Below, piece after piece: positions 4,323-54,802 of a stretch of 54,802 bases of DNA (its first letter is position 1; the number at the start of each line of letters is the position of its first letter). Below the pieces are notes generated by a model, which saw only the letters and a program-made list of their open reading frames with translations, did no database searches and was not told where the DNA came from. A program made the translations under genes and the position numbers. The DNA lies in assembly GCA_003225295.1 (NCBI GenBank), contig QHYZ01000023.1:1-54802 (forward strand), given 5' to 3'. This stretch comes from Acidobacteriota bacterium. Lineage in GTDB: Bacteria > Acidobacteriota > Terriglobia > Acidiferrales > UBA7541.

Positions 4323-5252
4323 TTATTCCAAGGGCCAAAGCCAGGCCGCGCCGCGTACTCCGCTCGCGTCTCCATGCTTCGCCGGAAGAATGGGCGTGTC
4401 TGCTTCGTGGCCGAAAACATACTCCTTCAGTCGAGGCGGAACATTTTGGTAGATGCGCGGAATTTGCGAAGCTCCTCCACCCATCACGATTACATCCGGA
4501 TCAAGAAGGTTGATGAGGTGTGCTAATGCCCGCGTGAGGCGGTCTTCAAATCGACCGAGGGCGGCAAGCGCGGCTGCTTCACCTGCGCCGCTTCGCGCTA
4601 TAATCCCGGGACCTTTGAGGGGAACTCCTGTGGCGCGATTATAGTCCGCTTCCAGCCCCGTTCCGGAAATCCACGTTTCGATGCACCCGTTCCTCCCGCA
4701 GTAGCAGGCCGAGCCGGGAAACTCGTCCGAACGCATCCACGGCAAAGTGTTGTGTCCCCATTCGCCGGCAACTCCGTTCGAACCGCTGTGCACGCGGCCA
4801 TCCACGGCAATTCCGCCGCCGCAACCTGTCCCCAAGATCACCGCAAAGACAATGTGCTTGCCCGCGCCCGCGCCGTCGGTCGCTTCGGAAACCGCCAGGC
4901 AGTTAGCGTCATTGGCGCAGCGCACTTCGCGCCCCAGCGCGCGGCCCAAGTCCTTGTCGAAGGGCTTTCCGTTCAGCCACGTGGAGTTGGCATTTTTCAC
5001 CAAGCCGGTCTTAGTGGAAATAGTCCCGGGAATGCCCAAGCCGACGGTGGCGCTCCGTCCGAGTTTTTTCTCGATTTCCTGTGTAGCCTCCGCTATGGCC
5101 CGTACCGTGCCGTCATAGTCGTGCCGCGGCGTAGCGATGCGGTGGCGATGCAATTCCCTGCCGTCTCGCTCGAGCGCGACGAATTCGATCTTGGTGCCGC
5201 CAAGATCCACGCCGATGCGAAGGTGTTCCTGTTTTTCTTGAATTGTCGGCAT
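4323..5252 (-). CDS. mak: ROK-family fructokinase, Mak type
   Basis: This 309-residue kinase follows E. coli Mak closely along its length. It has the N-terminal phosphate-binding segment [37 protein letters not shown], the catalytic-Asp region [13 protein letters not shown], the ROK signature with GEWGH, the zinc cluster [11 protein letters not shown], and the C-terminal [15 protein letters not shown]. Mak phosphorylates fructose to fructose-6-phosphate in the cytoplasm; activity on other hexoses is possible. ATG 5252 has GGGGAAG upstream. A longer form starting at 5297 is less likely, because the extra residues do not match the family. No sugar transporter lies nearby. Confidence 0.85.
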
Positions 5253-5360
5253 CGATGGAGCTTCCCCGGCGAGGAGGTAGTCTACACCGCAGCGCACCTC
5301 TGTAAATGGTTGTGTTCTTGAAATTGTCGTGCAGTCAGAGGAGGGCGTCAGGGGCCAGCT

Positions 5361-7886
5361 TTATTCGTCGCCGCGGACTTGCCACCAATCGAGGCGCTCA
5401 ACTTCGGCCATTTTTTCGGAGCCGTGTTCCTGATACCAGCGGCTCCAGGCGAGCGCGTCCGCCGGCAGGTTTTCATCGGTGATTTCTTGCAGTGCGAGGA
5501 AAGTCCAGCTTCGCATTTGCCCGGTTGTGCGAGGATTCATGGCCAGATCAAGGAGCTTCGGAACTATCGTCATTCGCTGCTTGCGCGTGAAAATTCCGCA
5601 ATCGGAAATATTGCAGCCCGCGCGATCGCGCACGGCGGTAGCGGGATCTTCCGTGAACGAAGTGAACAGTTCATCGAGAACCTCATCCTTGGCTAGAAAG
5701 CGCATCCCCTCGACGGCCCATTGCCGCACAGTCGGGTCCTTATCGTTCCGCGCGTAATTCAATAGCACACCGTGGATGCGTTCGTAGTCTACACCGCGAC
5801 CCGCCAGCATTCCCAGATAGTAGACCGCCCAGGCGCGGTAGCGCGGGTCAGATTGCGCGCGCTGAATCAAAAGATCGACGGCTTCCTGATTCTTTTGCCA
5901 GCCTTCCAGCACAAGATTGATGTCAGCATTGGCGTAACGGACTCGTAGGTCCTTGGAAAACTCGGAGCGCCGCTCCAACTGCTTCATGCGGTCGCTCATT
6001 CGAATGCGGCCACGCCATCCGTCAACCAGCTCATCGAAAAGCTCCAGAGCACGCGTGTCGTGACCGATGGCGCGTTCGAGCAATTCTTCCGCCTGCACTT
6101 GCGCGGGAAGTGCGCGCACGCGCTCCACGTCCGCATCGGTTAACAGGGCCGAAAAGACGCGCCGCGCCACCGGCGGCTTGGTACGAGCAGCTGCCACTGT
6201 GCGGGAGTTATTTGTGCGCGCAGTGAACGAGGTCATTCGCCACGCCATGAAACCGAACATCCCAAGCACCATCGCAAAAAACACGCCGATAGATACGGCC
6301 GTGGACGCGCGTGGCCTGGCCTGAGTGAATGTCTGCCCTGGCTGTTGTGGAACAGGCGTGAGAGGCACACCGAGAGGCAGATCCACTTCCACGTGCGTAT
6401 CCAATTTCATGCCTGACCAGGTCTCGATCTGCGATACCACCCAGCGCGCTTCCTGGCGGCCGGCGATTTCGTCGGCTAGCGTGATTTTGCTGCCATTCTT
6501 GAGCCGCATTCGAATGGCGTGCAGTGCGTTGTCCGAATTGCCGCCTTGCTGCATGCTGACCACGGGCAGGATGGAAACCACTTCGGAAACTTGAAATCTG
6601 CGGGTGCGTCCGAGGCCGAGGATTCCCCTGCACGAAAGAATTTCTCCGCTGCGAGCGCCGATTCGCGAACTGCCAAAGGTAGTGTGTAAAAAGCCAGCTA
6701 TGATCAGCACGTCGCTCAGCCCAAAAAGAATAAAAAACAAAGTGGGCGCGTGCTGCCGGTACATCAGGTAAATCACCGCGCTCCAGACCACGGTGACAAG
6801 GAGCAGAATCAGGGCGCGGGTGGGGTTTCGAAGTGGCGGAAAATAGAATTCCGTCCCGCCGGAACCCATCGAAACGATCACTTTTGTATGCGCGGGCTGC
6901 GCGACCTCGCCGGATTCCATGGTGCTCGGTTGCGATGAGGGAAAACCGAAGCTGTCGGCTCCCGTGGTGATCCGTGCCCCGAAATCACTCGCCGGTGCGG
7001 ACGTGGCTGCGGCGCGAAAAACAGGAATTTCAAAATCGTCCGAATAATCCACGCCTGGCACGTCATCCTGCGCGTGCAGCACCCAAAGAACCTGGTCGTT
7101 CGGGTTGTCCAAATCAGTGACCGAACTGTCTGCGGGAACCGAAAAATCCACGGGAATGGCACGGCCAAGCGGTCCTGGCTGCACGGCCCCGGCGGGAACA
7201 TTCTGATCCGCCTGCCACAGCACAACCTTAGTGGTGCTGCGGCTGTCGCCCGTTCCGGAAACGATCTTGCGCACGCAAGAAAGCTTCAGATCGATGCCGT
7301 GCTCCGCGCGAGTTTCGAATTTCAGGTGAATCCTTCCACTCACGTGCTGGCCAGGTAAAAACGGAAGCGCATCGAACTCAAAGTACGTGTCCCCAAAGCG
7401 CCTGTGGCGAATCGTGGCGCGCAGGGCGTTCACGAGAAGAATCAAGCCCATAAACGAAAATCCGAGAAGCACAAATACGCGGGGATCGCTTGCGCGCACC
7501 ATGTTCGGGGCGAGCATTGCAACCACGGGGAGCGTGACCATATTGCAGAAAATGCAGATCACCCAATACGTGATTTGGCTCTTCCTGTTTTGGCTTTCCG
7601 CTTGGCGCGAGGCCCAATCCGTTCGCCACAGCCAGGGAGAGAGCGGATTCGATTCCACGCGGGCGGCCTGCTGCTTCAATAGCGTGTAGCCGTGAAAGGC
7701 CGCATAGATGAATCCACCGCCGATGGAAACAAAAACAGAGCCGAACAGGATTGCAGCGATAGTTTCTATAGTTCGAAAATTTCCGCGGCTGACGATTTGC
7801 GCGTAGATGAAGGCGAGGCCTGCACCCGCAAATGGCAGTCCGAAGAGAGTCCGGAAGGCGGCAGCGCCCTTAGAAGGCTGGGTCAT
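5361..7886 (-). CDS. large membrane protein with arrestin-like region and C-terminal helical repeats
   Basis: No named family was recognised for this 841-residue protein. Visible parts, in order: hydrophobic segments near residues 14-32, 46-65, 106-128 and 137-156; a beta-rich region at about 168-293 (FLPGQHVSGRIHLKFE, AIPVDFSVPAD, DFEIPVFR) that resembles an arrestin-like sandwich; two more membrane segments near 355-410; a stretch resembling a PH-like domain; another hydrophobic segment near 525-545; and a helical repeat region from about 580 to the end (DPTVRQWAVEGMRFLA, PATAVRDRAG) that looks like HEAT repeats. The N-terminal layout recalls DUF3592-type proteins. It has no catalytic motif and stands alone on its strand. 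Confidence 0.65.
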   Translation of the reverse strand: MTQPSKGAAAFRTLFGLPFAGAGLAFIYAQIVSRGNFRTIETIAAILFGSVFVSIGGGFIYAAFHGYTLLKQQAARVESNPLSPWLWRTDWASRQAESQNRKSQITYWVICIFCNMVTLPVVAMLAPNMVRASDPRVFVLLGFSFMGLILLVNALRATIRHRRFGDTYFEFDALPFLPGQHVSGRIHLKFETRAEHGIDLKLSCVRKIVSGTGDSRSTTKVVLWQADQNVPAGAVQPGPLGRAIPVDFSVPADSSVTDLDNPNDQVLWVLHAQDDVPGVDYSDDFEIPVFRAAATSAPASDFGARITTGADSFGFPSSQPSTMESGEVAQPAHTKVIVSMGSGGTEFYFPPLRNPTRALILLLVTVVWSAVIYLMYRQHAPTLFFILFGLSDVLIIAGFLHTTFGSSRIGARSGEILSCRGILGLGRTRRFQVSEVVSILPVVSMQQGGNSDNALHAIRMRLKNGSKITLADEIAGRQEARWVVSQIETWSGMKLDTHVEVDLPLGVPLTPVPQQPGQTFTQARPRASTAVSIGVFFAMVLGMFGFMAWRMTSFTARTNNSRTVAAARTKPPVARRVFSALLTDADVERVRALPAQVQAEELLERAIGHDTRALELFDELVDGWRGRIRMSDRMKQLERRSEFSKDLRVRYANADINLVLEGWQKNQEAVDLLIQRAQSDPRYRAWAVYYLGMLAGRGVDYERIHGVLLNYARNDKDPTVRQWAVEGMRFLAKDEVLDELFTSFTEDPATAVRDRAGCNISDCGIFTRKQRMTIVPKLLDLAMNPRTTGQMRSWTFLALQEITDENLPADALAWSRWYQEHGSEKMAEVERLDWWQVRGDE

Positions 7887-21804: not shown

Positions 21805-22314
21805 GTGAGCAGCGCTACGAACGAGCCGAACAGAATTGAGCGCCGATCCATTCTGGCGGTGGATTATGGGCGCGCGAGGATTGGAATTGCTCTCGCGGAC
21901 GCGGAGACACGGATGGCGCAGCCGCTGATGACGATGGAGCGCATCAATCGAAATGAGGACATGCGGCGGCTCCGTGAACTGGTGCGCGGTCACGACGTGA
22001 AGCAGATCGTGGTGGGTTTGCCACTGCGGCTGGATGGCACGCGCGGCGAAATGGCCGAAGAAGCGGAGCGCTTTGCGCAACGCGTGCGGAAACAGATGGG
22101 CGTGCCGGTGGAGTTGGTGGACGAAAGGCTGACGAGCTGGGAAGCCGAGCGCTTGCTGGAAGAAGTTCAGGGAAGATTTATACGCCATGAAAAACTGACC
22201 GGCAGTAACAAACCGCAGAATGTGCAGGCCAAGATGACCGTGGATGCCGTGGCGGCTGCCGTTATTTTGAAAGAGTACCTGGATCGACAGAGGCAGACGG
22301 CCGAGAAGGCTTGA
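21805..22314 (+). CDS. ruvX: RuvX/YqgF, putative Holliday junction resolvase and pre-16S rRNA nuclease
   Basis: The 169-residue RNase H-fold protein has the acidic sites of the YqgF family: SILAVDYGRARIGIALAD, QIVVGLPLRLDGTRGEMAEEAERFAQRV, VELVDERLTSWEAERLL, and a closing MTVDAVAAAVIL. E. coli YqgF completes 16S rRNA 5' maturation; resolvase activity is reported for some relatives. The start is GTG 21805. Its TGA overlaps the TTG of mltG by 4 bases (TTGA), so the two are likely translated together. Confidence 0.93.
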   Translation: MSSATNEPNRIERRSILAVDYGRARIGIALADAETRMAQPLMTMERINRNEDMRRLRELVRGHDVKQIVVGLPLRLDGTRGEMAEEAERFAQRVRKQMGVPVELVDERLTSWEAERLLEEVQGRFIRHEKLTGSNKPQNVQAKMTVDAVAAAVILKEYLDRQRQTAEKA

Positions 22315-23450
22315 GCATCACAAGAAACCGGAACCGTGAGGCTAAATTGAAGTTTTTGCTCGCTCTATTGCTCTTGATCGTACTGATTGGCGGAGGCGCT
22401 GCGGCGTGGATGTGGTATGGAATGACGAAACCGTACCAGGGCTTTGCGGCGGAAGGCGTCTTCGTCGATGTGCCGCGCGGGACTTCCAGCCGGCATGTGG
22501 CGTACCTGCTGAAAACAAATGGCGTGGTGCGCAGCGCTCTGGCATTTGAGATCTATGCGCGGCGGCATCCGAAGCGCACGCTGCTGGCCGGCGAATACTT
22601 TTTTGATCATGCCATGACGGGCCGCGAAGTCTTCTGGAAGCTCGCCAACGGCCAGGTTTACCAGCAGCCGTTCACGGTGCGCGAAGGCGAAACAATGTTC
22701 GACATTGCCCGCGAACTCGAAGCAGGAAAGTTCATGCGCGTGGGCGATTTTCTCTATGCCGCCGGCGATCCGGCGCTGATTCGCGATCTTGCGCCGGGCG
22801 CTCAGACGCTCGAAGGTTTCCTGTTTCCGGCCACTTATGAACTTCCCCGGCACCCAGCAGCCAGCGAACTGATCGCAGAAATGGTGCACAAGTTCAAAGA
22901 GGAGTGGAAGCGTATGGACTTGCCAATGGCGCGGGGACCGACCGAAGAGGGCAACCACAGGTCCGTCAACAGGATCGTGACCCTGGCGTCGCTCGTTGAG
23001 AGGGAGACGCCAAAGCCGGAAGAGCGGCCACTGGTGGCTGGTGCATTTGAAAACCGATTGCGCAAAGGCATGCGGCTGCAGTGTGATCCGACGGTAATCT
23101 ATGGACTGGAGCGGCTGGGAAAATACAGAGGAACGCTAACGGGGAAGGACCTCGGTTTCGATTCTCCGTACAACACATATGAGCATGGCGGGCTACCTCC
23201 CGGGCCAATTGGAAATCCCGGGGAAGCATCGTTGCGCGCCGCGCTCCAGCCGGCGCAGACGAATTACCTTTATTTCGTGGCCAACACCCAGGGAGGGCAT
23301 TTTTTTAGTGCCACCCTGGCGGAACACAACAAGAATGTGGTGAAGTACCATCGGCTGCTGGCCGGTCTTCCGGCGGATCCACCGCCGCAACCACCTCCGC
23401 CCAGTCCGAAGAAGAAACAAGGCAAGCAACACCGAGGCACAGCACGATGA
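22311..23450 (+). CDS. mltG: endolytic peptidoglycan transglycosylase MltG
   Basis: The 379-residue protein has one N-terminal membrane segment (about 14-36), a LysM-like region, and the YceG/MltG catalytic domain. Family motifs are GVFVDVPRGTSSRHVAYLL, LEGFLFPATYELPR, IVTLASLVERETPKPEERPLVAGAFENRL (the Glu of LVERE is the expected catalytic residue), LQCDPTVIYGL, SPYNTYEHGGLPPGPIGNPG and NYLYFVANTQGGHFF. It cuts nascent glycan strands in the periplasm and sets their length. The C-terminus has a Pro/Lys tail. Its TGA overlaps the next ATG (ATGA). Confidence 0.95.
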   Translation: MSITRNRNREAKLKFLLALLLLIVLIGGGAAAWMWYGMTKPYQGFAAEGVFVDVPRGTSSRHVAYLLKTNGVVRSALAFEIYARRHPKRTLLAGEYFFDHAMTGREVFWKLANGQVYQQPFTVREGETMFDIARELEAGKFMRVGDFLYAAGDPALIRDLAPGAQTLEGFLFPATYELPRHPAASELIAEMVHKFKEEWKRMDLPMARGPTEEGNHRSVNRIVTLASLVERETPKPEERPLVAGAFENRLRKGMRLQCDPTVIYGLERLGKYRGTLTGKDLGFDSPYNTYEHGGLPPGPIGNPGEASLRAALQPAQTNYLYFVANTQGGHFFSATLAEHNKNVVKYHRLLAGLPADPPPQPPPPSPKKKQGKQHRGTAR

Positions 23451-24004
23451 CTGAAGATTTGAAAACGAAGAAGGCACTGATCTTGGAGACCGCGCGGGAG
23501 ATCAAGGTACAGCAATGGACGCCGGCGGAGATCGATCAATTGCGGCGGCGGCTCCTGGCGGAGCACGGCGAGGCCGGCAAAACGGGAATGGAATACATTG
23601 CTGACGTGCTGAAAGACGCGGGACAAAAAGTAACGATTAACCAGCAGGAAGAAGCCGAGGACCAGTACGAGGAAGAATTCGAGGATCTGCTGCACTTCAG
23701 GACGCTGGAAGATGCTGAAGTCAGCATCATGCGGCTGGATGAATTGATGCGCAAGTTTCGCGGGCAAAACGAACACGCGGCGGTGGGGCGCGTTTTGAAC
23801 GTAGCGCGGCTCGGTAAGCGCCGCGCGGAGATGATCTCGCGCAACAACAAGGTGGAAGCTCACAAGCGCGCCGAAAAAGTAGAGATCGCCAGCTGGTTCC
23901 GTATCTGGCTGGAAACCCCGGATGCTTTCTTCGACTGGCTGGACGTTCGGAAGCAGTCGCCGGAATTTCGCGCCAAGTTTCCGCAACTGGAGACTGAAGA
24001 ATGA
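23447..24004 (+). CDS. unknown helical protein coupled to mltG
   Basis: I do not recognise this 185-residue cytoplasmic protein. It is acidic in the middle (EEAEDQYEEEFEDLLHF) and basic after (RVLNVARLGKRRAEMISRNN), mostly helical by composition, with no signal or membrane segment. The end has WFRIWLETPDAFFDWLDVRKQSPEFRAKFPQL, an unusual aromatic-rich motif. It overlaps mltG upstream and the next gene downstream by four bases each (ATGA), so it is translationally coupled with both. A role near cell-wall synthesis or ruvX is possible only by position. Confidence 0.7.
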   Translation: MTEDLKTKKALILETAREIKVQQWTPAEIDQLRRRLLAEHGEAGKTGMEYIADVLKDAGQKVTINQQEEAEDQYEEEFEDLLHFRTLEDAEVSIMRLDELMRKFRGQNEHAAVGRVLNVARLGKRRAEMISRNNKVEAHKRAEKVEIASWFRIWLETPDAFFDWLDVRKQSPEFRAKFPQLETEE

Positions 24005-24603
24005 GCACGCCGGGAACTGCGGCGCCAGGAAACGGTGCGCTGGAATTGCCGCCCTTTTCTCTGGATGTGCAGGCGCTGGACCTCGGTGGCGACGTCAAAG
24101 CGGTGGCACTCGAGCTAGTCGAAACTGAAAACCGCGAGCCGGTACGAGGCAGGGACGCGGCAGAGATCTGGTCGGCGGTCTTTCCTGCCCTTGCGGGGAA
24201 CGAATCGTACGCCGTGGATTTTTTCAGCCACATCGAGAGGGTAAGAGAGTTTTGCAAGACGCGCGAAATCGCGTTGCGCGATGCGGCGGAGCGCTGTGTC
24301 GTGCTGCCGCAGCCCAATCAAGAGCAGTTGCAGCAGATCTTTGAACGACTGGAAGGCGAGACATTCGGCCTTCGAGCAGGCCGGGCGGCGCAATCCGCCG
24401 ATGCGGCACTCGAAGGCAACTTGTCAAAGTGGGGGTTAAACGCCTATCAGCCAGTCTACGCCGGCTACACGTTCTGCGCCATTTGCGAGCCAGAAGACGG
24501 CTGGGTGACGTTGCTGAGCGAGTCGCTCTGGCCCAGCGAAGTCATCCGGCGGGTGCGGCCGGCAGTTGAGCGATTTAACATCCACATTGCGCGGCCCAAT
24601 TGA
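24001..24603 (+). CDS. unknown 200-aa protein, end of the ruvX-mltG operon
   Basis: No family was recognised. The protein is soluble with two apparent parts. The first (about 1-110) has LPPFSLDVQALDLGGDVKAVALELVE and AVDFFSHIERVREFCKTREIALRDAAERCVVLP. The second (about 110-200) has AYQPVYAGYTFCAICEPEDGWVTLLSESLWPSEVIRRVRP, a beta-rich segment with a CAIC pair. ATG 24001 overlaps the previous stop by 4 bases. It ends 91 bases before the lipoprotein gene that opens the Lol-like locus. Confidence 0.68.
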   Translation: MSTPGTAAPGNGALELPPFSLDVQALDLGGDVKAVALELVETENREPVRGRDAAEIWSAVFPALAGNESYAVDFFSHIERVREFCKTREIALRDAAERCVVLPQPNQEQLQQIFERLEGETFGLRAGRAAQSADAALEGNLSKWGLNAYQPVYAGYTFCAICEPEDGWVTLLSESLWPSEVIRRVRPAVERFNIHIARPN

Positions 24604-24694
24604 AAGACTTCCTGGCCGTGACCCGCATGGATTGACCGGCATCCGAGTGGTTGCTAGATTGCTTCATTTGAACGAGTGAGAACGGAACTGATTG

Positions 24695-25594
24695 ATGCGA
24701 CGTGTGAAAACATGCCTGGTGCTGGCGACACTGGCGGCTAATTCCTGCGGCTGTAGTAGCAGAAATGGCGTAAAGGGCCACACCGAACTAACTCAGTCGC
24801 AGAGGTCAGTCGCGAAGGAGGCCACGCGTGAGGAACTCTTCGAAGCATACAATCTGATCGCGCGCAGCACAAAAACGCTGAACGCCACCGTTGAGTTGAA
24901 GCCGACAGCGGGGTCAAAGTATAGCGGGGTGATCGACGAGTACCATGAGGTTAAGGCCTTTATTCTGGCGGTGCGGCCGGCGGAGATTCGCGTGATCGGG
25001 CAGGCGCCGGTGATCGGAACCACGGTGTTTGATATGGCCAGTGATGGCGAAACGTTTCGAGTCTCGATTCCACCGAAGAAAAAGTTCCTCGTTGGACTGG
25101 TGGCTGTCGAGCGCTCCAGCAGCAAGCCGATCGAGAATCTACGGCCGCAGCATCTGCTGGATGCGCTGCTCTGGCCGGAAATTCGAAAGGAAGAATCTGT
25201 GACTTTGCGCGAGTACAACGAGGAGAACGCCAGGTATTACATATTGACAGTTCTTCGCGGCGGCTATCAGGTCGAAGTGTTGCGGGAAATCTGGTTTGAC
25301 CGCTCGGAGCTGCAGGTATCCCGCATGCTGACTTTCGGGCCGAAAGGTGTTCTACTTTCCGATGTTCGCCTCGGTGACTGGCAACCTTCAGATGCTGCGA
25401 CGTCATCAACTGCCGCGGCCTTGTTTCCGCGCGCGATTCGAATCGAAAGACCGCACGACGACTACCAGCTCGATTTGCGGGTCACCAAGGTCATCATGAA
25501 TGAAGAGATTCCGGCCGAGCGATTCAAACTCGAGCAACCGGCGGGGGCGGAATTGGTGCCTGTTGGAAAAGCCTCGGAGTCCAAGCAACCATGA
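24695..25594 (+). CDS. LolB-like outer-membrane lipoprotein (LolA/LolB fold)
   Basis: The protein of about 299 residues has a lipoprotein-type signal (RRVKTCLVLATLAANSCGC); the acylated Cys would be residue 18 or 20, though neither box is ideal. The body has the strand pattern of the LolA/LolB superfamily: STKTLNATVELKPTAGSKYSGVIDEYHEVKAFILAVRPAEIRVIGQAP, then TTVFDMASDGETFRVSIPPKKKFLVG. Such folds bind the lipid tails of lipoproteins. A DUF4292-type assignment is the main alternative. It overlaps the permease by 4 bases (ATGA), a strong hint that they work together. Confidence 0.7.
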   Translation: MRRVKTCLVLATLAANSCGCSSRNGVKGHTELTQSQRSVAKEATREELFEAYNLIARSTKTLNATVELKPTAGSKYSGVIDEYHEVKAFILAVRPAEIRVIGQAPVIGTTVFDMASDGETFRVSIPPKKKFLVGLVAVERSSSKPIENLRPQHLLDALLWPEIRKEESVTLREYNEENARYYILTVLRGGYQVEVLREIWFDRSELQVSRMLTFGPKGVLLSDVRLGDWQPSDAATSSTAAALFPRAIRIERPHDDYQLDLRVTKVIMNEEIPAERFKLEQPAGAELVPVGKASESKQP

Positions 25595-26688
25595 TGGGGG
25601 AGCTGATCCTCCGCAACCTCCTGCACCGGCCAGTGCGCACGCTGATCGGAGCAATGGGGATTGCGGTGGAAGTTGCGCTCGTCGTCCTAATCGTCGGGCT
25701 GACCAGCGGGCTGCTGACTGAGACGGCCAGGCGCATTGAAGGCATTGGAGCGGACATCATGCTGCAGCCGCCATCCGCGTCTTTCCTGTTCGCCTTTGGC
25801 AGCGCGCCCATGCCCATCAAAATCGGCGACCGGCTTGCGGAATTGAAGTACGTCCAATCCGTTGCTCCCGTGCTTTTCCAGTTTAATACGTCGGGCGTCG
25901 AAATCGTTTACGGAATTGAACAAGAGAGTTTTCGAGCCGTCTCCGGCGGATTTGTGTTCCTTCAGGGACACGACCTGGAAGGACCCGACGACATTCTGGT
26001 GGACGACATTGCGGCGAAAATGAAAAACATACAGCCGGGGCAGACTTACCGCATCTTCGATCACGATTGGCGCGTCACGGGAATCGTCGAGCATGGAAAA
26101 GGTTCCCGACTATTTGTTCCCCTCGCAACGCTTCAGGAACTGGTGGGCGCGCGGAATAAGGCCACCATTTTCTTTATAAAGTGCACGCGGCCCGAACATA
26201 CCGAAGACGTCATGGAAAATATGCGTCACGTCCTTCCTGGCTACACGGTGCGGCCGCTCAAAGACTATCTCTCGCTGATGACCTCGACGAATATCCCGGG
26301 CCTCGAGGCCTTCATAAACGCCATGATCCTGCTGGCCATCTCCATCGGGCTACTGGTCATTTTTCTCACCATGTACACCACGGTGATCGAACGCACCAAG
26401 GATATCGGCGTTCTGAAATCGCTCGGCGCAAATCACTGGTTCGTCATTCGGGCGCTGCTCTCGGAATCCGCGGCGCTTTGCGTCCTGGGAATCGTGGCAG
26501 GCATCGGTCTGAGCTATCTGGTGCGAGCCGGTTTTATCTGGAAGTTTCCGACGCTGACCATTCTCATCACCTCGGGATGGATTCTTCGCGCGGCCGGCAT
26601 TGCACTCCTGGGCGCGCTGTTTGGCGCGAGCTATCCAGCATGGCTGGCCAGCCGCAAAGATGCGGTTGAAGCATTGTCATTCGACTAG
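25591..26688 (+). CDS. FtsX/MacB-type ABC transporter permease
   Basis: The 365-residue permease has the four-helix layout of the MacB/LolCE/FtsX group: one N-terminal helix (about 17-38), a periplasmic MacB-PCD domain (about 40-235), and three C-terminal helices (near 245-265, 288-315 and 330-352). The typical coupling segment YTTVIERTKDIGVLKSLGANHWFVIRALLSE and end GASYPAWLASRKDAVEALSFD are present. It probably acts as a homodimer, because only one permease is in the locus. Family members extract lipoproteins from the inner membrane or export small molecules. The ATPase gene starts 151 bases downstream. Confidence 0.88.
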   Translation: MMGELILRNLLHRPVRTLIGAMGIAVEVALVVLIVGLTSGLLTETARRIEGIGADIMLQPPSASFLFAFGSAPMPIKIGDRLAELKYVQSVAPVLFQFNTSGVEIVYGIEQESFRAVSGGFVFLQGHDLEGPDDILVDDIAAKMKNIQPGQTYRIFDHDWRVTGIVEHGKGSRLFVPLATLQELVGARNKATIFFIKCTRPEHTEDVMENMRHVLPGYTVRPLKDYLSLMTSTNIPGLEAFINAMILLAISIGLLVIFLTMYTTVIERTKDIGVLKSLGANHWFVIRALLSESAALCVLGIVAGIGLSYLVRAGFIWKFPTLTILITSGWILRAAGIALLGALFGASYPAWLASRKDAVEALSFD

Positions 26689-26790
26689 GAGACCCGGGCG
26701 CGGAGTACGCCGAGAACACAACGGACACCAAGAAGAGAGGAAAGGGCCGCGAAACAAGCCGGATGCCTAGGCACGAATGCGAATCGCAGC

Positions 26791-26796
26791 TACAAT
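26791..26796 (+). promoter_or_regulatory. possible -10 box TACAAT before the LolD-like gene
   Basis: TACAAT lies 43 bases before GTG 26840. If used, it would exclude the upstream in-frame ATG at 26777 as the start. Confidence 0.3.
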
Positions 26797-26839
26797 ACCT
26801 GAACCTGCCGAAGGGCTGATTTTCCAGGGAAAAAAGAAC

Positions 26840-27523
26840 GTGGAGCCGATACTCAGGACAGAGAATCTGTGGAAGCTTTACCGCGCGGGCAAGGTGGAAG
26901 TGCCCGCCTTGCGCGGCGTGAATTTCGAGGTCCAGCCTGGCGAATCAGTCGCGGTGATGGGGCCCTCGGGATGCGGCAAGTCTTCCTTGCTGTATGTGAT
27001 CGGCGGCCTGGCGCAAGCCTCCCGGGGAAAGGTTCTGGTTGACGGGAATGACCTCACCGAGTTGAGCGACGCCGCGCGCACCAAATTGCGCCGCCACAAA
27101 ATCGGCTTCGTCTTCCAGCGATTCAATCTGCTCCCCACGCTGACGGCCAAAGGGAATATCGCCATCGCGCAGTTTATTCATGGCGACGGATTCGACCCGC
27201 ACCGCTTCGATGTTGTGACGCAGATGCTCGGTCTGGCAGGGCGTTTGCACCACAAACCCTCGGAACTCTCCGGCGGCGAGCAGCAGCGCGTAGCCATCGC
27301 GCGGGCGATCATCAATGAGCCGAAGATTCTCCTCGCGGACGAGCCCACGGGAAACCTGGATTCGAAGAATTCGGAAATCGTGCTGCAGATGCTGCGGCAG
27401 CTGAACAAGGATCTGGGCCAGACCATCGTAATGATCACGCACAACCCGGAAGCAACAACCTATTTCGACCGCGTGGTACACATGCGCGATGGGGTTATCG
27501 TCGACGGCGTGCCTGCGGATTGA
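26840..27523 (+). CDS. LolD/MacB-type ABC transporter ATPase
   Basis: The protein of about 227 residues has all ABC motifs in order: Walker [10 protein letters not shown], a Q-loop near [13 protein letters not shown], signature LSGGEQQR, Walker [14 protein letters not shown] and a switch His in MITHNPEA. The N-terminal [26 protein letters not shown] is standard for LolD. The GTG at 26840 was chosen because its protein start matches the family and AGGGAAAAAAG precedes it; an ATG at 26777 would add 21 odd residues. It powers the upstream permease. The next gene starts 1 base after its stop. Confidence 0.9.
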
Positions 27524-27524
27524 C

Positions 27525-27911
27525 ATGGCAAGCCTTGGCCAAATTCTTGCCCGGACGTTTTTCTGGTCCTACGAGCGCGGCACGTGGCAATATGACGTCG
27601 CGGTAATCCTGATTCTGGTCTTCGTGCTTCTCACGCCTCGGAACTGGTTCCGCGATAAACCGCAAAGCGGAGCGCCGGTCACACCAGGGCAGGTCCAATT
27701 TATTTCGAAAGAGGGAAACCGGCTGACCTATCGCGTGGATGCCCGCATCCTGGCCCCGCCGACAAGGCTCGCTCTTCAAAACGACCTGCACACCGCGTTG
27801 CAGGAGGCGCTGCCCGAACTGCACAGCGGGAACTTCTCGATCGCCAAAATCGAACCACTGCGCGATGACCAGGGCACGGTGATTGCCTACCAGGTCGACA
27901 TTCACCGTTAG
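27525..27911 (+). CDS. small single-pass membrane protein of unknown function
   Basis: The 128-residue protein starts one base after the ATPase stop, so it is very likely in the same operon. It has one membrane segment (YDVAVILILVFVLLTP, about 27-42) and then a soluble domain with GQVQFISKEGNRLTYRVDARIL, LQNDLHTALQEALPE and IEPLRDDQGTVIAYQVDIH, a beta-alpha-beta pattern likely on the periplasmic side. No family was recognised. Position suggests an accessory of the ABC system. Confidence 0.68.
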   Translation: MASLGQILARTFFWSYERGTWQYDVAVILILVFVLLTPRNWFRDKPQSGAPVTPGQVQFISKEGNRLTYRVDARILAPPTRLALQNDLHTALQEALPELHSGNFSIAKIEPLRDDQGTVIAYQVDIHR

Positions 27912-28040
27912 CGCCGTTCTGACCGGGGGCCACACCTTGCTTCCGGGTATCCTTGAGGCGCGCTCGCGCATCTCTTTGTATATGTTAGGATTGCGAAGGT
28001 TTGTCTGAACTGCCGCATCTTTACTGGATCGAGGTTACGT

Positions 28041-28745
28041 TTGAGACGTCCATCTTGTCTTCTTTTCGCGATGCTTAGTCTGTGCTGCTCGCTAAGCGGG
28101 CTTCGAACGCTGTCCGCGCAGACTACTGCAAATTGGACCATCGAAGGCATCCTGGGCATGATGGACAAGTCCGCGCAGGATTTTCGCACGCTAACGGCCG
28201 ACATTGAACACATCAAGTACACGGCAGTAGTGAAAGACACTTCCACGGAAACGGGCCACATTTTCGTGCGGCGCGACGAAAAGATGCGTATCGAAATCGC
28301 GAAACCTGATTTGCGCACGATTCTGCGAACCGGCGATTCTCTCTTCGTCTACAACCCGAAGATCAATCGAGTGGAAGAATTCGACCTCGGCAAGAACCGT
28401 TCGATGGTCGATCAATACGTTCTTCTTGGCTTTGGAACAAAGAGCGACAATATCAGGAAAAGTTATTTGGTTTCTGTCGTTGGCGAAGAAGAGCTCGATC
28501 ATAAGAAGACAGTGGTTCTGGAGTTGACACCCAAATCAGAACAGATCCGCAACCAGATCATCAAGATTCAGATGTGGATTGATCAGGCTTCCTGGCTGCC
28601 GATTCAGCAAAAGTTTTTTGAGGCTGGCTCGGGCGACTACTTTTTGTTTCATTACATCAACGCCATGAAAAACCTGAAAATCGGCGATGGAAAATTTAAG
28701 CAAGATTGGCCGAAGAGTGTCAGCCGCGTGAAACCTCACGCGTAG
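28041..28745 (+). CDS. LolA-like periplasmic lipoprotein carrier
   Basis: The 234-residue protein has a signal peptide (RRPSCLLFAMLSLCCSL...LSAQ) and a complete LolA domain: TLTADIEHIKYTAVVKDTSTETGHIFVRRDEKMRIEIAKP, SLFVYNPKINRVEEFDL, KKTVVLELTPKS, IQMWIDQASWLPIQQKFFEAGSGDYFLFHY. LolA carries lipoproteins between the inner and outer membranes; related proteins serve other lipid carriers. The start is TTG 28041 with GAGG upstream. It lies 129 bases after the membrane protein and is the last gene of the Lol-like locus. Confidence 0.85.
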   Translation: MRRPSCLLFAMLSLCCSLSGLRTLSAQTTANWTIEGILGMMDKSAQDFRTLTADIEHIKYTAVVKDTSTETGHIFVRRDEKMRIEIAKPDLRTILRTGDSLFVYNPKINRVEEFDLGKNRSMVDQYVLLGFGTKSDNIRKSYLVSVVGEEELDHKKTVVLELTPKSEQIRNQIIKIQMWIDQASWLPIQQKFFEAGSGDYFLFHYINAMKNLKIGDGKFKQDWPKSVSRVKPHA

Positions 28746-53588: not shown

Positions 53589-53705
53589 CCTGGAATTTGC
53601 GGCTATCGTTCCGGTCAATTCCGGCGTCGAAGAAAGCAAGTGAAGGTTGTAGCCGGAATCACAGCCGGTAGCCACGCGTGTGGGGCTCCTGGTGAGGAAA
53701 AGGCC

Positions 53706-54802
53706 ATGTTGGAAAACCTGCAGCAAGACATCCGCTACGGAATTCGGACGCTCGGGAAGAATCCGGGGTTCACAGTTATTGCGGTACTAACGCTGGCGCT
53801 GGGGATTGGGGCGAACACGGCAATCTTCAGCGTGGTCGAAAACCTGCTGCTGCGGGCGCTGCCTTATCGGCAGCCTGAACGGCTAGTGGAGATCGCGAAC
53901 ACGTATCTGCCTCAGATTCCCAGAGCGGGATTGTCTCCCGGGGATTACGCGGACTGGCGACGTCAAAACGCGAGCTTTTCGGAGATGGGAGCGTGCGCGG
54001 AGATTTTGCAGGGATTCAACTTGTCTGGCGAGGGCGAGGCACAACGCGTCCGGGCAGCCTACGCGGACGCGGGACTCTTCCCGATGCTGGGGATTCGTTC
54101 GGTAGTGGGGCGATCGTTTGTACCGGAAGAAGACCGGACGGGAAGCGCGCCGGTGGTGATCCTGGGCCACCGGCTATGGCAAAGCCGTTATGGTGGAGAT
54201 CCGCGCCTGGTGGGCCGCAGCATTTCTCTCGACAACCAGCGCTACACGGTCGTGGGCGTTCTGCCTGCCGGGTTGCAACTCTCGCGATCCGCCGATTTGT
54301 GGATGCCCTTTGGCCAATTCAATGACGACCTAACCGAGCACGTACATCATGTATTCGTGGCCATCGCGCGGCTAAAGCCGGGAATCAGCTTGGCACAGGC
54401 ACGGGATGAGGTGGGCAGGCTCCATCAACAAGAGGCCATCGCCTACCCGGATGCACCTAGGAATTTTGGCGCGCTGGTGGAGCCGATTCAGGATGCGGCG
54501 GCGGCTAGGCTGCGCACCACCTTATTGGTGTTGTTTGGAGCCGTGGGGGTGGTGTTGCTGATTGCTTGCGCGAATCTTGTGAATCTGCTGCTGGTGCGGA
54601 ACGCGACGCGGGAACGAGAAGTCGCGGTGCGGACGGCGCTGGGCGCGAGCCCGTGGCGATTGATCCGCCAGCTGCTCACGGAGAGCATGCTGCTTTCCTT
54701 GTTTGGCGGCGCACTGGGCCTGCTGTTTGCTGTTGTCGGACTGAAAGCGTTGCTGGCCTTTGTCCCCGCTGACCTCGGGGTGCTGCGTGAGGCCGGTCTG
54801 AA
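53706..54802 (+). CDS. ADOP-type ABC permease (partial, runs off the window)
   Basis: From ATG 53706 (GAGGAAAAGG upstream) an open frame runs to the edge, giving at least 365 residues. It begins MLENLQQDIRYGIRTLGKNPGFT, the short N-terminal signature of the acidobacterial duplicated orphan permeases, then a helix (VIAVLTLALGIGANTAIFSVV), a MacB-PCD domain with LPYRQPERLV, GIRSVVGRSFVPEEDRTGSAPVVILGHRLWQSRYGGDP, and the first FtsX helices (LVLFGAVGVVLLIACANLVNLLLVRNATREREVAVRTALGAS). No cognate ATPase lies in the window. The function of the family is not known. The C-terminal half is missing. Confidence 0.85.
   Translation, partial: MLENLQQDIRYGIRTLGKNPGFTVIAVLTLALGIGANTAIFSVVENLLLRALPYRQPERLVEIANTYLPQIPRAGLSPGDYADWRRQNASFSEMGACAEILQGFNLSGEGEAQRVRAAYADAGLFPMLGIRSVVGRSFVPEEDRTGSAPVVILGHRLWQSRYGGDPRLVGRSISLDNQRYTVVGVLPAGLQLSRSADLWMPFGQFNDDLTEHVHHVFVAIARLKPGISLAQARDEVGRLHQQEAIAYPDAPRNFGALVEPIQDAAAARLRTTLLVLFGAVGVVLLIACANLVNLLLVRNATREREVAVRTALGASPWRLIRQLLTESMLLSLFGGALGLLFAVVGLKALLAFVPADLGVLREAGL

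Follow-up and report, generated by a model that had tools for sequence, protein, structure and literature searches.

The window analysed here is the whole of contig C5 (QHYZ01000023.1; 54,802 bases) from an Acidobacteriota genome of 8.1 Mb in 385 contigs. It carries a five-gene operon at 24695–28745 that is Lol-like in build, yet is not the Lol pathway. With a probability of roughly 0.5, we interpret this operon as a second, dedicated shuttle from the inner to the outer membrane, resembling the Lol system but separate from it, for whose cargo a membrane lipid is a likelier candidate than bulk lipoproteins.

All five genes were located on the forward strand. The first encoded a LolB-like lipoprotein (24695–25594; 299 amino acids, ATG start, with TTG at 24692 also possible), and its reading frame shared four bases (ATGA) with that of a MacB/LolC-type permease (25591–26688; 365 amino acids in a single chain). 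A LolD-like ATP-binding cassette (ABC) ATPase followed (26777–27523; 248 amino acids), and one base past its stop codon began a small bitopic membrane protein, hereafter Sml (27525–27911; 128 amino acids). The last gene encoded a LolA-like periplasmic carrier (28041–28745; 234 amino acids, TTG start). A sequence-only reading of this DNA had described five same-strand genes with this overlap and this one-base gap, and had proposed conservation of their order in other genomes as a check. The layout was confirmed throughout, and tblastn recovered the complete set, in this order, in 22 of 37 stretches from other genomes of the class; the remaining 15 stretches were cut by a contig end or lacked some of the five. 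Because the same order was recovered in other genomes of the class, the five genes are more than chance open frames.

The operon is additional to Lol, since a LolC/E-type permease, a LolD-like ATPase and a LolA were found elsewhere in the genome. The permease, LolF-like and encoded on contig C223, scored 316.6 bits with TIGR02212 (next best 85), below the cut-off of 362.45. It was adjoined by a LolD-like ATPase 36% identical to that of the window, and a further gene beside it is presumably lysS, judged by reading. The LolA (68 bits, contig C73) was a better one than the window carrier. LolC/E-type permeases (E ≤ 1e-40) were present in 96 of 101 genomes (the own genome plus 100 relatives), including all 73 of good quality; two genomes carried two, and the TIGR02212 cut-off was passed in 5 of the 101. 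The sequence-only reading had suggested that the locus may be a complete Lol pathway, which was not supported, and had named the absence of another lolCDE set as a check, which turned out against it. Every functional class of Lol is represented in the one locus, as a sole pathway would have it; the idea that the organism has no Lol pathway besides a complete one in this operon was nevertheless rejected as highly improbable, given the canonical-type copy in this genome and the LolC/E-type permeases in nearly all relatives.

The LolB-like character of the lipoprotein, surmised earlier, was borne out by its fold and a protruding loop. The window lipoprotein matched no Pfam family at E ≤ 1, and so not LolB (PF03550). 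Among 45 aligned family members, the matches at E ≤ 0.1 were to DUF4292 (17), LolA_like (16), LolA (1) and LolB (1; E 0.018, the sole PF03550 match). A search of the PDB returned no matches for the sequence alone and four weak LolA-like ones for the family profile (best E 1.1e-04). Alignment of the lipoprotein profile with single E. coli LolB or LolA sequences by hhalign was uninformative (probability 1.75%), so a fold comparison was needed. The AlphaFold2 model (predicted local distance difference test (pLDDT) 88.4, predicted template modelling score 0.81) had P. gingivalis LolB (9tpm) as its best structural match (VIA Z 17.6, 3.5 Å), with 11% identity over 221 aligned residues and from a different phylum. 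LolA-like proteins and LolA came next, E. coli LolB (1iwm) reached Z 13.9, and the Foldseek top row was the LolA-like protein 3buu. The predicted structure shows a LolA/LolB superfamily fold, within which fold scores alone do not discriminate between the two proteins.

The loops are more telling than these scores. With strands taken from the model, an Arg-Pro loop (R94-P95) and a β3–β4 loop with the residues APVIGT (104–109) were encoded at 24974–25021. Arg or Lys followed by Pro occupied positions 94–95, on the β2–β3 loop, in 41 of the 45 members. The β3–β4 loop read APV-I/V, residues 106 and 107 both being hydrophobic in 42. According to the accessible text of its description, P. gingivalis LolB has an Arg on the β2–β3 loop and a hydrophobic Leu on the β3–β4 loop (PMC13103446). 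As in that protein, the R/K-P pair is the Arg-Pro motif of LolA and residues 106–107 are the LolB loop residue. The E. coli LolB stretch TNPLGSTE reads as the counterpart of the β3–β4 loop, by eye rather than by computed alignment. A lipobox cysteine (Cys20; 24752–24754), invariant in 45 of 45 lipoproteins, predicts lipidation.

A LolB-type loop and fold would also be expected if the operon were a second lipoprotein-sorting pathway, serving a special lipoprotein subset or supplying a LolB-type receptor to a genome whose best match to PF03550 LolB, at 16 bits, stayed under the cut-off. In Bacteroidota, specialised LolA–LolB pairs are reported or suggested in the available parts of two papers (PMC11885536, PMC13103446). 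We regard this pathway as somewhat unlikely, as the permease has no insertion corresponding to the LolA-recruiting Hook (a role taken from the accessible text of PMC10865981) and its profile is nearer to MacB than to LolC/E/F, and as, in other genomes, several of the neighbouring or fused genes relate to lipid synthesis or transport.

The carrier exceeded both Pfam cut-offs (LolA_like PF17131, 42.9 bits; LolA PF03548, 32.5 versus 23.6) and remained under that of the LolA equivalog TIGR00547 (37.6 bits versus 112). Its profile matched P. aeruginosa LolA (2w7q, E 2.9e-07). With hhalign, it aligned to E. coli LolA at 83.5% (168 columns) and to the lipoprotein family at 96.4% (195 columns), and it had no match to E. 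coli LolB (1.05%). These Pfam, profile and hhalign matches agree with the earlier call of a LolA-like protein, and by reading its N-terminus looks like a signal sequence. At another locus (L187:5372-6854), two similar LolA-like carrier frames of 231 amino acids stood in tandem past the ATPase and Sml, as judged by reading.

The permease contained the MacB core domain (PF12704, 55.7 bits versus 27) and the FtsX domain (PF02687, 55.4 versus 25.5). Its profile scored 101 bits with MacB, 45 with LolC, 42 with LolF and 29 with LolE, and it reached 30.1 bits with the LolC/E family TIGR02212, far from the cut-off of 362.45. MacB proteins were also its closest solved relatives by sequence. By these tests the permease lies outside LolC/E/F; it may nonetheless work like one. 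The operon contained one permease gene, as the sequence-only reading had recognised, and the simplest assembly would therefore be a homodimer. The ATPase was encoded by a separate gene, not fused to the permease; it matched ABC_tran with 124.4 bits, and its best NCBIfam model was LolD (TIGR02211, 221.1 bits, below the cut-off of 307.75).

In the accessible text of PMC10865981, the Hook (residues 167–179) of LolC recruits LolA and is essential in E. coli, is predicted to enter LolA in every modelled LolC/LolF species, and LolE is said to bind no LolA. None of 39 members of the permease family had an insertion at the Hook place. In one alignment, an insertion was present there in E. coli LolC, LolE and the own-genome LolF, and absent from the window permease, a distant homologue and MacB. 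The missing insertion speaks against a Hook in the window permease; its presence would not prove one. Both the kinship with MacB and the missing insertion, a feature shared with MacB, are compatible with a MacB-like mechanotransmission or efflux exporter of a small hydrophobic molecule, in which the LolA-fold proteins would act as binding proteins. Such an exporter is improbable, considering that a Pfam scan of the window, covering nine genes at 21805–28742, contained no MacA-type adaptor, that the ATPase is unfused, and that the permease strictly co-occurs with two LolA-fold proteins.

Further MacB-type permeases were abundant in the genome, with at least 150 matches to the MacB core domain (150 of 300 candidates were scored and all 150 matched). 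One MacB-type permease frame, at 53640–54800 of the window, ran past the contig end and is, by reading, what we take to be ADOP-like. A second permease of the window-permease family (418.7 bits to the profile) was encoded in genome G000 (C69:55995-57074; L125:7996-9141). No other shuttle gene was found within about 7 kb of it; it adjoined an FAD/NAD oxidoreductase and had no firm placement in the permease tree.

Sml is a previously undescribed small membrane protein family. The sequence-only reading had flagged a new small accessory at 27525–27911, and the protein indeed belonged to a conserved family without a Pfam or NCBIfam model: scanning 33 members gave nothing but sporadic hits, each from one to three members, at E ≥ 0.02. 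The 46-residue core (27525–27662) comprised a short stretch and then a single hydrophobic helix, placed at residues 21–36 by a low-confidence model, with W14, R18, G19, Y23, D24, F33 and P38 invariant (alignment A6, 24 rows). In several other classes Sml consisted of little beyond this helix core, and the C-terminal domain of the proteins from the window's class seems to have been added.

A collection of genome contigs (84,980 species by its own description) yielded 164 relatives of Sml, and the following results rest on the best 80, among which two pairs of loci shared sequence. The titles were acidobacterial, save for one Actinomycetota (with Acidobacteria in the scaffold name), two HR bacteria and one Candidatus. 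The carrier came right after Sml in 72 of the 73 loci with room for it. The ATPase preceded Sml in 61 of 76 loci; 46 of 68 had the permease, and 50 of 62 had the lipoprotein. Fifty-six loci had room on both sides: 37 held all four partners, 11 the carrier only, seven all but the permease and one all but the carrier. Sml and the carrier formed the tightest pair among the shuttle genes. Given the missing Hook insertion in the permease and the especially close tie of Sml to the carrier, we propose that Sml docks the carrier.

The lipoprotein, the permease, Sml and the carrier form a conserved set. The lipoprotein was present in 93 of the 101 genomes described above. Across the phylum, 396 genomes were surveyed with profiles for these four parts (permease E ≤ 1e-60, lipoprotein E ≤ 1e-8, Sml E ≤ 0.001, carrier E ≤ 1e-15); the ATPase was left out as too generic. 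The permease was detected in 145 genomes, the lipoprotein in 142 and Sml in 190, with one match each. The carrier profile is unspecific, as it matched 262 genomes, 116 of them without the other three parts. All four parts were found in 141 genomes, which is every genome with both permease and lipoprotein. Five genomes had one of these two without the full four: G481 (lipoprotein only), G370 and G385 (permease only), G070 and G078. Permease and Sml co-occurred with a Fisher value of 5e-63, which is indicative only as the genomes are related. In family f11, the Sml–carrier pair was separated from the permease in each of the genomes inspected (G095, G360 and G235). In G095, for instance, the lipoprotein was at C1:832670, the permease at C2:1258415, and Sml with the carrier from C2:313347. 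Nearly all sampled f11 genomes, with the exception of G481, kept the four parts, which argues for a shared function beyond inheritance as an operon.

Links to lipids, all of them indirect, came from other genomes. Eight loci were selected mainly for Sml lying in a long frame, and seven of them contained a CDP-alcohol phosphatidyltransferase, either in one open reading frame (ORF) with Sml (three loci, PF01066) or directly upstream (four loci); the eighth was a normal operon. The single ORFs joining the Sml core to the transferase (L231:5606-6466, L233:5479-6378 and L234:6081-6962) occurred in genomes in which the permease was not found, and these fusions and adjacencies belong to distant families. 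In six further loci, two of the same class (L064, L069), three of other classes (L130, L132, L143) and L156, a DedA-type gene preceded the lipoprotein, and a CDP-alcohol transferase with MlaD lay convergently past the carrier. The resulting order was DedA, lipoprotein, permease, ATPase, Sml and carrier, facing the CDP-alcohol transferase and MlaD; L132, L143 and L156 contained MlaE as well. The L143 transferase most resembled archaetidylinositol-phosphate and phosphatidylinositol-phosphate synthases, with scores below the cut-offs of both. Small amounts of phosphatidylinositol occur in a Terriglobales strain according to chemotaxonomy, which its species description does not repeat, as far as the accessible text of the source goes (PMC12935467).

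In family f31, permeases were fused to an N-terminal membrane domain (L135:4951-7143, L136 with an ORF at 5029-7272, and L138:4832-6979). The L138 domain, the only one scanned, exceeded the PF03706 cut-off with 70.9 bits and remained under that of HpnL (TIGR03476) with 86 bits. In the permease tree, these HpnL-like fusions were placed inside a clade of 16 rows (100/100), most of them operonic permeases, and adjoined one more non-operonic copy (98/91). A conserved radical-SAM gene was located 3′ of the carrier in 23 of 129 neighbourhood loci (for example L152:6050-7069, L162:6100-7122 and L130:3205-4233); the NCBIfam models listed for the L152 protein were all far under cut-off.

On this indirect link, we favour a lipid over a lipoprotein subset as the cargo. 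A more specific version, put forward only tentatively, is that phospholipids would be transported forward from the inner to the outer membrane by a system widespread in Acidobacteriota, whose one-helix subunit would couple synthesis by a CDP-alcohol phosphatidyltransferase to extraction and dock the LolA-like carrier, which in turn would deliver to the LolB-like receptor.

Several observations weigh against a separate lipid shuttle. The window locus itself has neither the lipid neighbours nor the fusions; beside it lie ruvX, yceG and two unassigned proteins. Elsewhere both were limited to certain lineages: among the 129 loci, which are not all independent, DedA was found at 14, a CDP-alcohol transferase at 16, MlaD at nine and MlaE at five. 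The own-genome relative of the CDP-alcohol transferase (contig C75, 53% identity) had neither shuttle nor Mla genes clustered with it. The permease fused to the HpnL-like domain is a second copy, and genome G476 also has a whole operon with its own permease, for which reason the fusion was rejected as proof of a partnership. As to the parts, G070 and G078 had permease, Sml and carrier and no match to the lipoprotein. The permease was not found in 47 of the 190 Sml-bearing genomes, so Sml does not belong to the transporter alone. Its structure model was weak (pLDDT 68.8), and a fold search with that model gave no match at E ≤ 0.001. E. coli LolE, not a LolA binder, also has an insertion at the Hook place, and insertion length alone is a crude test.

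Compared with known systems, the operon shares with Lol an ABC permease, a LolD-like ATPase, a LolA-fold carrier over the Pfam LolA cut-off, and a LolB-fold lipoprotein with a predicted lipid anchor and a hydrophobic β3–β4 loop of the LolB type. Unlike Lol, its permease is far below the lolC/E cut-off and has no Hook insertion, and the set includes Sml, sits in a single operon and coexists with a LolC/E-type permease, a LolD-like ATPase and a LolA. It resembles MacB in permease domains and best profile score, and differs in the separate ATPase and in the lack of a MacA adaptor among the nine genes scanned. The same nine proteins included no MlaE-type permease and no MCE domain; MlaE and MlaD were found only as neighbours in other genomes. 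Of the arrangements found, the nearest published one, going by the accessible part of its description, is Borrelia BBJ23-29, for which a homodimeric MacB-like transporter, a separate ATPase, a LolA-like carrier alongside another LolA, and an uncharacterised protein are proposed (PMC13078400). In that text, the Borrelia cluster comes with Omp85 and TPR proteins and no LolB (PMC13078400), whereas the window set has a LolB-like lipoprotein and Sml, and no Omp85 or TPR gene was among the nine window genes in the Pfam scan. Flavobacterium LolA2/LolB2 of the flexirubin loci is likewise a specialised LolA–LolB-fold pair, suggested to serve the pigment or lipoproteins of the locus. Unlike the window genes it lies within a pigment-synthesis operon, and the available text describes no MacB-type permease or Sml with it (PMC11885536). 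Among the literature matches listed, from a search that left subscription papers and preprints outside, there was no published description of the shuttle.

Immediately 5′ of the shuttle genes and on the same strand were ruvX, yceG and, between yceG and the lipoprotein gene, two proteins of 185 and 200 amino acids (23447–24603) without a Pfam match over the cut-off; this layout, including the two proteins, was kept in many relatives. The gene 3′ of the carrier, on the opposite strand, is by reading presumably Ada-like.

For the shuttle that we propose, two copies each of permease and ATPase would assemble into a transporter of the MacB fold, which would extract acylated cargo from the inner membrane. 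Sml, bitopic and beside the transporter, would dock or present the carrier, replacing the missing Hook. The soluble carrier would then ferry the acyl chains through the periplasm and hand them on to the lipoprotein mouth-to-mouth, the hydrophobic loop of the lipoprotein entering the carrier cleft as in known LolA–LolB pairs. The lipoprotein, probably at the outer membrane, would insert the cargo there, perhaps a phospholipid derived from inositol or another CDP-alcohol.

Judging from the accessible parts of the literature, little is established about how bacteria other than Proteobacteria build the outer membrane, and debate continues over which way and by which routes phospholipids move. The four profiled parts co-occur in more than one in three of the Acidobacteriota genomes sampled (141 of 396), beside a canonical-type Lol set, and so offer a defined genetic handle. 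The operon also adds a new family of small membrane proteins, and it suggests that pairs of LolA/LolB fold were recruited to other cargo on more than one occasion.

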